A DNA stretch of 25,028 bases, from positions 1 through 25,028 of IMG/VR virus record IMGVR_UViG_3300037502_000657. One strand, 5' to 3'. Positions 127 through 4,650 of this stretch are shown one piece after another. Position numbers and translations under genes: made by a program. The DNA comes from a virus. Position 1 is the first letter of the stretch. Each line of letters starts with the position of its first letter. A model generated the notes under the pieces. That model ran no database searches. It was given only the letters and a program-made list of their open reading frames with translations, and was not told where the DNA came from.

Positions 127-199
127 GTTGCAAAAAAGCAACAGTTGTAAAAATACAACAAAAATAGTTCTTGACAAGTCCACGGACTTAGCGTAGAAT
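127..199 (+). promoter_or_regulatory. Promoter of the tRNA/ncRNA array with two GTTG-N8-CAAC elements
   Basis: TTGACA at 171-176, a 17-nt spacer and TAGAAT at 194-199 form a near-consensus sigma70 promoter. Two 16-bp palindromes stand upstream: GTTGCAAAAAAGCAAC (127-142) and GTTGTAAAAATACAAC (144-159). The same GTTG-N8-CAAC element recurs at most promoters of the right half of the window, so it is probably an operator or activator/UP-like site. It should drive the 9-kb array to 9169. Confidence 0.85.
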
Positions 200-219
200 T
201 GATTTCTGTTGTGAGTGAT

Positions 220-254
220 TCAGATAAGTCTGAGTTACCAAATGCTCTTTAACA
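220..254 (+). promoter_or_regulatory. rrn-like boxB-boxA antitermination leader
   Basis: TGCTCTTTAACAATT starts at 243 and is identical over 15 nt to the boxA region of the E. coli rRNA operon leaders as I recall it. A small hairpin (TCAGA-taag-TCTGA, 220-233) stands just upstream in the boxB position; the order boxB then boxA is that of rrn leaders. It sits between the array promoter and the first tRNA, where NusB/NusE-dependent antitermination would let polymerase cross the many hairpins of the array. Confidence 0.8.
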
Positions 255-270
255 ATTGATTCACCAGTTT

Positions 271-345
271 GCACCGTTCGTCTATCGGTTAGGACGGCGC
301 CCTTTCAAGGCGCAAAGATGGGTTCGATTCCCGTACGGTGTACCA
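271..345 (+). tRNA. tRNA-Glu(TTC)
   Basis: Acceptor GCACCGT/ACGGTGT, anticodon stem GCGCC/GGCGC, loop CTTTCAA, anticodon TTC, T loop TTCGATT, discriminator A and encoded CCA. It is the first tRNA after the boxA leader. Its ACCA end is also the start of a 17-bp inverted repeat that closes the next RNA domain. Confidence 0.95.
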
Positions 346-540
346 TTTGTTAGTGTTATTGTGGAAAATTCCTGTGATCGCAGGATAGTGAATCTCTGAG
401 TGGTTGCATGATCGAATACTTGTAATCAGGAGTTGATCCGAAAGCGAAGACCCTTTGGACGCATTGGGAATAAGTTGAGGCGTTAAAAGCAAACGCAGTA
501 CGGTTAAGGCTGCTATAACACAGTAACACTAACAAATGGT
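342..540 (+). ncRNA. Structured RNA between tRNA-Glu and tRNA-His
   Basis: A perfect 17-bp long-range helix (342-358 with 524-540) encloses about 165 nt. The 5' strand begins with the discriminator-CCA of tRNA-Glu and the 3' strand ends 5 nt before tRNA-His. Internal hairpins include CCTG/CAGG near 370 and GCGTT/AACGC near 480. There is no plausible ORF. A discrete RNA, a tRNA-processing scaffold or an inserted element are all possible; I do not recognise a family. Confidence 0.6.
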
Positions 541-545
541 TCTAT

Positions 546-621
546 GGTGTCCTTAGTGTAGTGGTCTGCACGCCATGTTGTGACCGTGGCAGTATGAGTT
601 CAATCCTCATAGGACACCCCA
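546..621 (+). tRNA. tRNA-His(GTG) with encoded G-1
   Basis: Acceptor GTGTCCT/AGGACAC plus an extra G546 pairing with discriminator C618, the G-1:C73 identity pair of tRNA-His. Anticodon stem CCATG/CGTGG, loop TTGTGAC, anticodon GTG. CCA is encoded at 619-621. Confidence 0.94.
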
Positions 622-627
622 AAGAAT

Positions 628-703
628 ACCGCTTTAGTTCAACGGATGAGAACACAAGGCTACGAACCTTGAGGTGGGAGTTCGATTCTCTCAGGCGGTG
701 CCA
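628..703 (+). tRNA. tRNA-Arg(ACG)
   Basis: Acceptor ACCGCTT/AGGCGGT, anticodon stem CAAGG/CCTTG, loop CTACGAA, anticodon ACG (inosine-modified in bacteria to read CGU/CGC/CGA). T loop TTCGATT, discriminator G, encoded CCA. Confidence 0.94.
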
Positions 704-716
704 AAAAAATTTGAAT

Positions 717-792
717 GTCTCGCTGGTGTTTAACGGCAGCATAGCGGTCTCCAAAACCGTTGGACGGGGTTCGAATCCCTGGCGGGATGCCA
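717..792 (+). tRNA. tRNA-Trp(CCA)
   Basis: Anticodon stem GCGGT/ACCGT, loop CTCCAAA, anticodon CCA. Acceptor GTCTCGC/GCGGGAT pairs through G-U pairs. Discriminator G and encoded CCA fit tRNA-Trp. Confidence 0.93.
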
Positions 793-799
793 AAATTAT

Positions 800-873
800 G
801 GGGGTATAACTTAGTGGTAAAGTAGTAGGCTTTTAACCTACAAATCAGGGTTCGATTCCCTGTGCCCCTACCA
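800..873 (+). tRNA. tRNA-Lys(TTT)
   Basis: Anticodon stem GTAGG/CCTAC, loop CTTTTAA, anticodon TTT. Acceptor GGGGGTA/TGCCCCT, discriminator A, encoded CCA. tRNA-Lys is the classic target of phage-triggered anticodon nucleases such as PrrC. Confidence 0.95.
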
Positions 874-881
874 CAAATTGT

Positions 882-959
882 GTGAGGATGCCCGAGTGGT
901 CCAAGGGAACGGATTGCAAACCCGTAAAGCCGTGAGTTCAAATCTCACTCCTCACTCCA
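882..959 (+). tRNA. tRNA-Cys(GCA)
   Basis: Acceptor GTGAGGA/TCCTCAC, discriminator T (U73, a tRNA-Cys identity base), encoded CCA. Anticodon loop TTGCAAA gives GCA. The loop-closing pair of the anticodon stem is an A-C mismatch. Confidence 0.92.
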
Positions 960-968
960 GAAGAATAT

Positions 969-1057
969 GGGTCTTGCCCCTTTCAGCGGACTGTAAATCC
1001 GTCGGCTTTGTTACGAAAGGAAGTTGCCACGTGGAGCGTTACCATCAAGACCCACCA
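969..1057 (+). tRNA. tRNA-Tyr(GTA)-like gene without a normal D arm
   Basis: Acceptor GGGTCTT/AAGACCC, discriminator A and CCA are intact. The anticodon stem-loop GCGGA-CTGTAAA-TCCGT gives GTA, and a long variable arm (CTTT/AAAG) fits the class II form of tRNA-Tyr. Only 10 nt separate the acceptor and anticodon stems, too few for a D arm. The T loop is AGCGTTA rather than TTCRANY. The segment CCTTTC (near 980) can instead pair with GAAAGG (near 1015). It is either a minimal tRNA-Tyr, the only one in this array, or a tRNA-like decoy. Confidence 0.55.
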
Positions 1058-1122
1058 TATTGAAGCACATTGCCGAACAGACAAATGGCGATAAACCTAT
1101 GAGTAGTGTGTTTCAATATGGT
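1054..1122 (+). ncRNA. Hairpin domain starting at the CCA of the Tyr-like tRNA
   Basis: ACCATATTGAA (1054-1064) pairs perfectly with TTCAATATGGT (1112-1122), and CAC/GTG extends the helix inward. An inner hairpin ATTGCC/GGCGAT lies near 1069-1092. As in the 342-540 domain, the helix starts at a tRNA discriminator-CCA. No ORF is plausible. Confidence 0.5.
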
Positions 1123-1196
1123 ACATTATAATGACGCATGAGCAGGTCATGAATCTCCGCTGGTCGCATTCGTGTGAGTGGGTGAGAGTAATGTAT
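1122..1196 (+). ncRNA. Second small structured domain
   Basis: TACATTA near 1122 pairs with TAATGTA near 1190. Inside are a hairpin ATGAC/GTCAT and a TCTC/GAGA stem. It fills the space between the preceding hairpin domain and tRNA-Ser. Function unknown; it could simply be a processing spacer. Confidence 0.4.
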
Positions 1197-1208
1197 CAAC
1201 TAATATAA

Positions 1209-1300
1209 GGAAGTGTGGCAGAGTCCGGTTTATTGCACCTGTCTTGAAAACAGACGATCCAGCGATGGGTCCGTGAGTTCGAATCTCACCGCTTCCACCA
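1209..1300 (+). tRNA. tRNA-Ser(TGA)
   Basis: A 92-nt class II tRNA. Acceptor GGAAGTG/CGCTTCC, anticodon loop CTTGAAA, anticodon TGA, long variable arm GATCC/GGGTC, T loop TTCGAAT, encoded CCA. Confidence 0.94.
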
Positions 1301-1709
1301 ACATTCCCCGGTCCTACGCCGGTTAGTGAGTAGGCGCAACGTGACAAGCGTTAGGAGTCGCAGGCTACTTGTAGAGCCTCCTATCGGGCGTTATCCGAAT
1401 AGGTAAACTGAGACAAGGAAGAATCATCATCTTCAAAACAGAGGTGCGGACAGGGTAACAACTCAGATTGGGGCTAGTGGAAGAGTGGCCAATCACCATA
1501 AGAGTAACAATTAAATTGTTAGATGTTGAGAAAACCGACTCTAGGCATAGAGTGGTGAGGTGACTCCGCAAGTGAGGTAAAACTAGCAACGGCCAAGTAT
1601 CAACTATCACTAACGGACCCTAAGAACGAAAGTTCATAAGCACAGCCGGCATAATTTGTGCATAATGCTCTCAATGTATGTGGTGAGAGAATTTAGTTGT
1701 TACCCTTAT
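1301..1709 (+). ncRNA. Large structured non-coding block of about 400 nt
   Basis: No convincing ORF. GGTCC (1310-1314), GTTAGTGA (1322-1329) and TAG (1331-1333) pair in order with GGACC (1615-1619), TCACTAAC (1607-1614) and CTA (1604-1606), closing about 270 nt. Inner hairpins include AGGCT/AGCCT, ACTCTA/TAGAGT and TAACAAT/ATTGTTA. Downstream hairpins GAAC-gaaa-GTTC, GCACA/TGTGC and CTCTCA/TGAGAG fill 1625-1690. Large ornate RNAs beside phage tRNAs are known (GOLLD, ROOL), but I cannot assign this one. Confidence 0.55.
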
Positions 1710-1784
1710 GGTGATATGACGTAGATGGATGCGTACTGCCCTCATAAGGCATGGAGAGTGGATCGATACCACTTATCACCACCA
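1710..1784 (+). tRNA. tRNA with CAT anticodon (elongator Met or Ile2)
   Basis: Acceptor GGTGATA/TATCACC is perfect. Anticodon arm CTGCC-CTCATAA-GGCAT gives CAT. T stem AGTGG/CCACT carries the unusual loop ATCGATA instead of TTCRANY. CCA is encoded. A paired first acceptor position argues against an initiator; Met versus lysidine-modified Ile2 cannot be settled here. Confidence 0.85.
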
Positions 1785-1786
1785 AC

Positions 1787-1861
1787 ACCGGATTAACTCA
1801 GCGGTAGAGTAATCGCTTGATAAGCGATAAGTCGTTGGTTCGAACCCAACATCCGGTACCA
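1787..1861 (+). tRNA. tRNA-Ile(GAT)
   Basis: Acceptor ACCGGAT/ATCCGGT, anticodon arm ATCGC-TTGATAA-GCGAT, T arm with TTCGAAC, discriminator A and CCA. Its anticodon arm resembles that of the permuted tRNA-Ile mimic in YL5. Confidence 0.95.
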
Positions 1862-1871
1862 AAACGAATTT

Positions 1872-1948
1872 GCCCTCATAGCCCAATCGGTAGAGGTAAC
1901 TCTCTCAAAAGGAGTGAAGTGTCAGTTCGAATCTGACTGAGGGTACCA
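1872..1948 (+). tRNA. tRNA-Leu(CAA) with a short variable loop
   Basis: Acceptor GCCCTCA/TGAGGGT, anticodon arm ACTCT-CTCAAAA-GGAGT, anticodon CAA reading UUG, discriminator A73 as LeuRS requires, CCA encoded. The variable region is about 5 nt, whereas bacterial tRNA-Leu normally has a long variable arm. Confidence 0.88.
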
Positions 1949-1987
1949 CTTGACAAATGGTAAGAAGTCTGATAGAATTAAGTTCTT

Positions 1988-3876: not shown

Positions 3877-4365
3877 ATGGTAAAGATAAACATCGATGAA
3901 GTTAGAGAATTCATAAACAAGCAAACACCAGAAACAAAAATCTATATTGGTGGAGATTCTGAACGATTCAAGATTGACAAAGTGTGGTACGCAGACTATA
4001 CTCTTGTTGTTGTCGTTCACGTTGATGGCAAGCATGGTTGCAAAATCTTTGGAGAAGTTCAAAGAGAACGTGACTATGATCAGTCAAAGAACAAACCAAG
4101 AATGCGTTTGATGACTGAGGTGTACAAGATCGCAGATTTGTATTTGAAGTTAGCCGATGTTCTGGAAGATAGAGAAGTGCAAGTTCACCTTGACATTAAT
4201 CCAGACGAAGCGTATGGAAGTTCATGCGTTGTGCAGGAAGCGGTTGGATACATCCGTGGTATGTGTAACGTAGTACCGATGGTAAAACCACAAGCGTTTG
4301 CCGCATCATATTGCGCAGACAGACTGAAGGAAATTTTGAACCATCAGCAAAGAAAAGTTGCTTGA
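3877..4365 (+). CDS. RNase H-like protein, YkuK/DUF458 family
   Basis: A 162-aa product. KIYIGGDSER (residues 21-30) is the first beta strand with its catalytic-type Asp27. E81 in LMTEVYK, D106 in HLDINP and D148 in YCADRL supply further acidic positions of an RNase H-like core. This matches the YkuK (DUF458) family known from firmicutes and phages, whose substrate is not established. The gene follows tRNA-Gln and precedes the ncRNA and Ro-like locus, so a role in RNA processing is attractive but inferred. Its last codons overlap the -35 box of the ncRNA promoter. Confidence 0.85.
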   Translation: MVKINIDEVREFINKQTPETKIYIGGDSERFKIDKVWYADYTLVVVVHVDGKHGCKIFGEVQRERDYDQSKNKPRMRLMTEVYKIADLYLKLADVLEDREVQVHLDINPDEAYGSSCVVQEAVGYIRGMCNVVPMVKPQAFAASYCADRLKEILNHQQRKVA

Positions 4366-4390
4366 CATTCCACTTGGAATGATATATAAT
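4362..4390 (+). promoter_or_regulatory. Consensus promoter for the YL3 RNA
   Basis: TTGACA (4362-4367), a 17-nt spacer and TATAAT (4385-4390): a perfect-consensus sigma70 promoter overlapping the end of the YkuK-like gene. Initiation near 4397 would start just before the closing helix of YL3 at 4411. It lacks the GTTG-N8-CAAC element of most other promoters here, suggesting different control. Confidence 0.88.
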
Positions 4391-4410
4391 TCAAGCATTG
4401 ATTCAGTAAA

Positions 4411-4632
4411 GGGTTGGTTACAGCAATCTTTAACATAAACGCTAAAGAGAGCCGTCCCCTACCGGAGGACCACAGCAATGTGTAATTACGGGGACTAGAG
4501 AGTAAACTTGAATTAAATCTGACACTGGAAAGACAGAAAGATGATGGTAGTCCATCTGATTACGGTGGGGCTTTATTATCCGCAAGGAAGCACCGTGGTT
4601 TAAGAACCGATAATATCTTGCCCGACCAACCC
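4411..4632 (+). ncRNA. YL3: 220-nt independently transcribed RNA
   Basis: The closing helix GGGTTGG (4411-4417) with CCAACCC (4626-4632) is followed by TTACAGCAA (4418-4426), the same helix-plus-motif layout as the other elements. Inside are GTCCCC/GGGGAC (4454-4459 with 4490-4495), GATGG-tagt-CCATC, ACGGTG/CACCGT and GGTT-taag-AACC hairpins, and TATTATC/GATAATA as an alternative pairing. It has its own consensus promoter, and a T-run follows the helix. TCTTTAACA near 4427 resembles a boxA core. There is no ORF. It is the largest member of the family. Confidence 0.75.
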
Positions 4633-4641
4633 GATTTTTTT
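4626..4641 (+). terminator. T-run after the YL3 helix
   Basis: The 3' strand of the YL3 closing helix is followed by GA and seven T residues (4635-4641). The closing helix itself, or the adjacent GGTT/AACC hairpin, could serve as the terminator stem. Some readthrough is needed if YL4-YL6 are made from the same promoter. Confidence 0.55.
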
Positions 4642-4650
4642 CGTAGTATT

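Follow-up and report, generated by a model that had tools for sequence, protein, structure and literature searches.

We studied a 25,028-base stretch of viral DNA (IMG/VR virus record IMGVR_UViG_3300037502_000657, hereafter the window), in which ARAGORN found 25 transfer RNA (tRNA) genes, and in particular the short leader that heads the first part of this tRNA array. The leader presents a sigma-70 promoter, a boxB-like hairpin and a boxA, in this order, followed by tRNA-Glu, which starts 13 nucleotides (nt) past the end of boxA (Table 1). This arrangement resembles that of host ribosomal RNA (rRNA) leaders and suggests that the phage could use the host antitermination machinery to transcribe its tRNAs (see below). 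The boxA is a 15-mer, TGCTCTTTAACAATT, of which an exact-match search gave a single copy in the window, with 1.5e-4 copies expected by chance (first-order Markov model, both window strands). Its 15 letters are the same as those of boxA in the rrnB leader of Escherichia coli K-12, in agreement with the rrn-type boxA proposed in the first-pass annotation of this DNA; the rrnB spacer of the same strain carries TGCTCTTTAAAAATC. The window boxA also fits exactly the gammaproteobacterial consensus GYTCTTTAANA (PMC5725501). The hairpin has a UAAG loop and was equalled by 0.5% of dinucleotide shuffles, and the centroid fold of the leader leaves boxA unpaired. In the E. coli rrnB leader, a boxB hairpin is likewise followed, after 2 nt, by boxA. 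Both the boxB-like hairpin and the position of boxA between promoter and first tRNA, which the same annotation had claimed, were confirmed. The window has the features of an rrn-type leader: a consensus boxA, a boxB-like hairpin 5′ of it, a promoter on the 5′ side and long untranslated RNA on the 3′ side.

Table 1 Features of the boxA leader and of the tRNA array behind it in the window
Feature	Position	Strand	Basis
Sigma-70 promoter of the array	171..199	+	TTGACA, 17 bp, TAGAAT; 11/12 consensus bases
boxB-like hairpin GTGATTCAGA-TAAG-TCTGAGTTAC	~214..237	+	10-bp stem; centroid fold; covariation of equivalent hairpins in other leaders
boxA TGCTCTTTAACAATT, putative NusB/S10 binding site	243..257	+	Exact match; same as E. 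coli rrnB leader
tRNA-Glu(TTC), first behind the leader	271..345	+	ARAGORN and Rfam
Array portion headed by boxA, before the internal promoter	271..1948	+	9 tRNAs (ARAGORN) and 1 (Rfam); long untranslated spacers
Internal naked promoter adjoining tRNA-Asp, without boxA	1950..1978	+	TTGACA, 17 bp, TAGAAT; TG before -10; 11/12 consensus bases

The same arrangement was observed in other viral contigs. When a viral collection was scanned for TGCTCTTTAA with a tRNA T-arm 56-86 nt downstream, 54 loci were obtained, 38 of which (near-identical copies included) had a tRNA starting 2-23 nt past the 15-mer, whereas a reversed boxA of the same composition gave 12 loci and a single tRNA, 28 nt away. All sets pooled, there were 59 non-redundant boxA-tRNA leaders; boxA mostly ended 13-21 nt from the tRNA, and the most frequent first tRNAs were tRNA-Glu(TTC) and tRNA-Gln(TTG). 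Promoters with at least 10 of the 12 consensus bases were present in 40 of these 59 leaders, as compared with 4.9% of shuffled upstream sequences, and the distance from promoter to boxA ranged from 6 to ~59 nt. A stem of at least 5 base pairs (bp) preceded boxA in 24 of the 31 long leaders (shuffles: mean 10.5, maximum 17). The sequences of this stem vary among phages while the pairing is kept: in eleven hairpins chosen for their GAAA loop, 64 of 66 cells were paired, with 22 pair types, and permuting the 3′ arms 10,000 times never gave as much. Some leaders have no hairpin and their boxA starts 6-12 nt past the -10 hexamer; boxA is therefore the constant part. In L140, L143, L144 and L162, boxA is located just behind a hairpin resembling an intrinsic terminator, and no clear promoter separates this hairpin from the tRNA that follows. 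BLAST of the window leader against phages gave no meaningful match.

A sample assembled independently of boxA, 225 tRNA-array loci fetched by T-arm patterns, showed the same bias. GYTCTTTAANA was found at most 70 nt from the tRNA in 6 of 578 first tRNAs versus 1 of 2110 internal ones, the mean for the shuffled consensus being 0.09 among first tRNAs, and the broader YTCTTTRANA preceded 17 first tRNAs (shuffles: mean 0.98, maximum 6). A second boxA-like motif, GTTCTTTGACATATTGG, was found unsought 14-19 nt before the first tRNAs of other phages (this and close forms in L221, L223, L252, L268, L386, L404, L423 and L428); it may resemble the rrn leaders of Bacteroidota.

The first-pass annotation had proposed a search of homologous phages for boxA before tRNA arrays, and such leaders recurred across several lineages of a terminase tree: next to the jumbo phages XacN1 and RAS14, next to Stenotrophomonas phage DLP6, and in phages related to Synechococcus phage BUCT-ZZ01, the placement of one boxA phage (L028) being unsure. 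The T4-KVP40-nt-1-S13 group of the tree contained no boxA phages, and no boxA was found before the tRNAs of T4, KVP40, nt-1 and phiKZ. Among 15 cultured phages, counts of the consensus pattern were not above the reversed control, and the sites of XacN1 and RAS14 were set apart solely by their context and mutual similarity. The promoter-boxA leaders of these two phages are homologous (73% identity over 113 nt). In the Xanthomonas phage XacN1, a long unannotated non-coding stretch (L604:1132-3639, ~36.6-39.1 kb) follows the leader and contains, by Rfam, a GOLLD RNA and a permuted transfer-messenger RNA (tmRNA). In the Stenotrophomonas phage RAS14, a long unannotated non-coding stretch behind the leader (L605:4664-8661) likewise contains a GOLLD RNA, with three tRNAs and two small annotated genes between boxA and GOLLD; another boxA phage, L161, also has GOLLD. 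As for host genomes, a more specific boxA-tRNA pattern had only 6 matches in bacterial and archaeal genomes totalling 257 billion bases, one of them a dense array of 14 tRNAs on a betaproteobacterial contig (L191). When 370 genomes belonging to the same class as that organism were examined, a match was present in 2, its own genome counted. Host tRNA operons therefore hardly ever use a boxA leader.

We then considered as relatives of the window 80 contigs encoding a protein 69-89% identical to its Ro-like protein. YTCTTTAANA was located at most 60 nt from a tRNA in 19 of them; the matches at 38 nt in L492, L494 and L504 are near-identical and count as a single sequence, in which no promoter is obvious at that site. 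Several relatives have two boxA units, one before tRNA-Gln and one before tRNA-Glu. When the strong promoters of the 80 contigs were made non-redundant and sorted by leader length, boxA was present in 0 of 33 leaders shorter than 25 nt, in 18 of 21 with 25-70 nt, and in 0 of 21 with 70-110 nt, a class that probably holds many false promoters. A leader of 25-70 nt is therefore nearly always a boxA leader. Units headed by boxA were longer than those headed by a naked promoter, with a median of 10 versus 2.5 tRNAs (p = 1.7e-4) and an untranslated span of 1.30 kb versus 0.31 kb (p = 4e-4), p values that are optimistic because phages of common ancestry are not independent samples.

Other features of the window accompany the array. 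ARAGORN missed a possible tRNA-Tyr(GTA) at 961-1058, judged by eye, and a likely extra tRNA at 1710-1781 (Rfam match of 46.6 bits). A repeat, AGTTTTAGGATACATTCAGCAA...GTATCCTG, a candidate small RNA or processing hairpin, is found among the tRNAs at 2144-2206, 2291-2357, 4645-4775 and 4908-4934, and similar pieces also separate tRNAs in the relatives L476 and L492. The Ro60-like protein gene (DUF2828/DUF7788, PHROG 850; region 4362-6416) is preceded by a promoter of perfect consensus and by a non-coding stretch, in which 4828-4889 gave a weak match to Y RNA-like (YrlA) RNA, under the gathering score of the family. Behind this promoter, at 4362, TCTTTAACA at 4427 was considered as a second boxA and rejected, as it has no pyrimidine before TCTTTA; boxA was also looked for upstream of the Ro-like gene in the relatives and none was seen. 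Positions 6465-6839, adjoining tRNA-Val, encode a small protein that resembles release factors and has an RF-1 domain (PF00472).

Taken at the level of sequence, these results suggest that many uncultured phages, from several lineages, borrow a host machine that protects transcription and apply it to their non-coding RNAs. For the window, NusB/S10-dependent antitermination of the tRNA array, opposing Rho, is the best explanation and in our judgment a rather probable one. The promoter would be read by RNA polymerase with a host-type sigma-70, and the nascent leader would expose first the hairpin and then boxA. The latter would be bound by the host NusB-S10 dimer, which, with NusA, NusG and SuhB, would be held to RNA polymerase via an RNA loop, and the polymerase so modified would withstand Rho over the next kilobases, where tRNAs and spacers are transcribed but not translated. 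The complex may also aid the folding and processing of the array RNAs. We infer NusB-S10 binding, Rho resistance and the identity of the host; the action of NusB, S10 and SuhB against Rho in the window is deduced from known boxA biochemistry. In a reporter carrying an rrn boxA, a long non-coding stretch was shielded against Rho, an effect that depended on boxA and on NusB (PMC4807359), and in a synthetic CRISPR array in Legionella the leader boxA raised precursor RNA ~10-fold (PMC7862264). The reading of the first-pass annotation, a phage borrowing the host antitermination machinery, is supported by the recurrence of the leader, the covarying hairpins, the position of boxA at the head of the longer non-coding units and its near-absence from host tRNA operons.

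Several points weigh against this reading. None of the 15 cultured phages had boxA immediately before a tRNA, and many relatives have no consensus boxA in the stretch seen, some presenting a near-consensus form or a promoter abutting tRNA-Glu instead. The expectation that relatives would carry the element was borne out, though not in all: many phages have the boxA leader, but a share of the relatives and T4, KVP40, nt-1 and phiKZ do not, and the leader is therefore not universal. The first-pass annotation had also stated that no other strong promoter lies before 4362, which is wrong, since the internal promoter (Table 1) scores the same as the first one, and tRNA-Asp begins 9 nt on. The boxA-headed stretch therefore spans about 1.7 kb before further transcripts are possible, and this promoter makes read-through less needed in the window. 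Compact tRNAs may, moreover, resist Rho unaided. Finally, at rRNA the complex has been argued to serve mainly maturation rather than antitermination, Nus factors and SuhB reportedly mattering more for the former (PMC4807359).

The last point leads to the alternative that survives best, namely that the boxA complex is mainly a co-transcriptional aid to the folding and maturation of tRNAs and other structured RNAs and not an antiterminator. In its favor, structured RNAs lie downstream, such as the highly structured GOLLD and permuted tmRNA behind the XacN1 leader. We consider it unlikely: boxA tracks longer units and no particular RNA, and the same kinds of tRNA are found under naked promoters without boxA. 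Antitermination is favored because of this bias to long units. It is also quite improbable, and less likely than antitermination, that abundant phage boxA RNA acts as a decoy, titrating NusB-S10 so that the host makes less rRNA. The two boxA copies of some phages would fit a decoy, which would, however, need neither to head an RNA array, with a tRNA mostly 13-21 nt away, nor to favor long arrays, and there are just one or two copies per locus. We give equally little credit to a boxA look-alike, be it a DNA element close to the promoter or a signal for tRNA 5′ processing. Several phages have boxA near the expected transcription start, as noted above for leaders without a hairpin, yet the sequence stays that of rrn boxA while promoter distance and tRNA spacing vary, and the same tRNAs occur behind naked promoters without it. 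A chance match can be taken as refuted by the copy number expected in the window and by the same placement in unrelated leaders, even though the large viral collection has many matches to TGCTCTTTAACAATT that lie outside tRNA arrays (most of 119 stretches).

A broader proposal, which we hold tentatively and at somewhat less than an even chance, is that in large phages of several lineages, possibly infecting several host phyla, a host-type boxA is a general device for expressing islands of non-coding RNA (tRNA arrays, GOLLD and permuted tmRNA), its sequence adapted to the host, with GTTCTTTGACATATTGG as the version of another host phylum. If the antitermination reading is true, it would account for lytic phages expressing kilobases of untranslated RNA, would tie the tRNA supply of the phage to host factors serving ribosome synthesis, and would offer a sequence-based entry to how GOLLD, an RNA without known function, is expressed. 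In the open-access literature searched, from which subscription journals are largely missing, no paper linked boxA to phage tRNA arrays.

Antitermination through boxA is known from rRNA, CRISPR arrays, suhB and lambdoid nut sites. What would be new is that phages apparently extend it to tRNA arrays and to further islands of non-coding RNA. Among the known systems, the E. coli rrnB leader is alike in its 15-nt boxA, the hairpin just upstream, the sigma-70 promoter upstream and the untranslated RNA downstream. The phage leaders differ in being phage-borne and heading tRNA arrays, in the distance from boxA to the first RNA (mostly 13-21 nt versus ~130 nt in rrnB), and in the hairpin, which is often a GAAA-loop stem or missing. 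In lambdoid nut sites, where boxB comes after boxA and N protein takes part, a phage likewise exploits boxA and host Nus factors; the window leader was rejected as a nut site, as its hairpin precedes boxA instead of lying 3′ of it, and its boxA is a complete rrn-type element, a kind that needs no phage protein in the host. In the CRISPR-array leaders of Stringer et al. (2020, eLife e58182), as cited in PMC7862264, boxA leads a long non-coding array, which here consists of phage tRNAs. The regulation of suhB by Nus factors (PMC5725501) similarly involves a GYTCTTTAANA boxA outside rRNA, where it represses mRNA expression, whereas in the phage leaders it is followed by tRNA.
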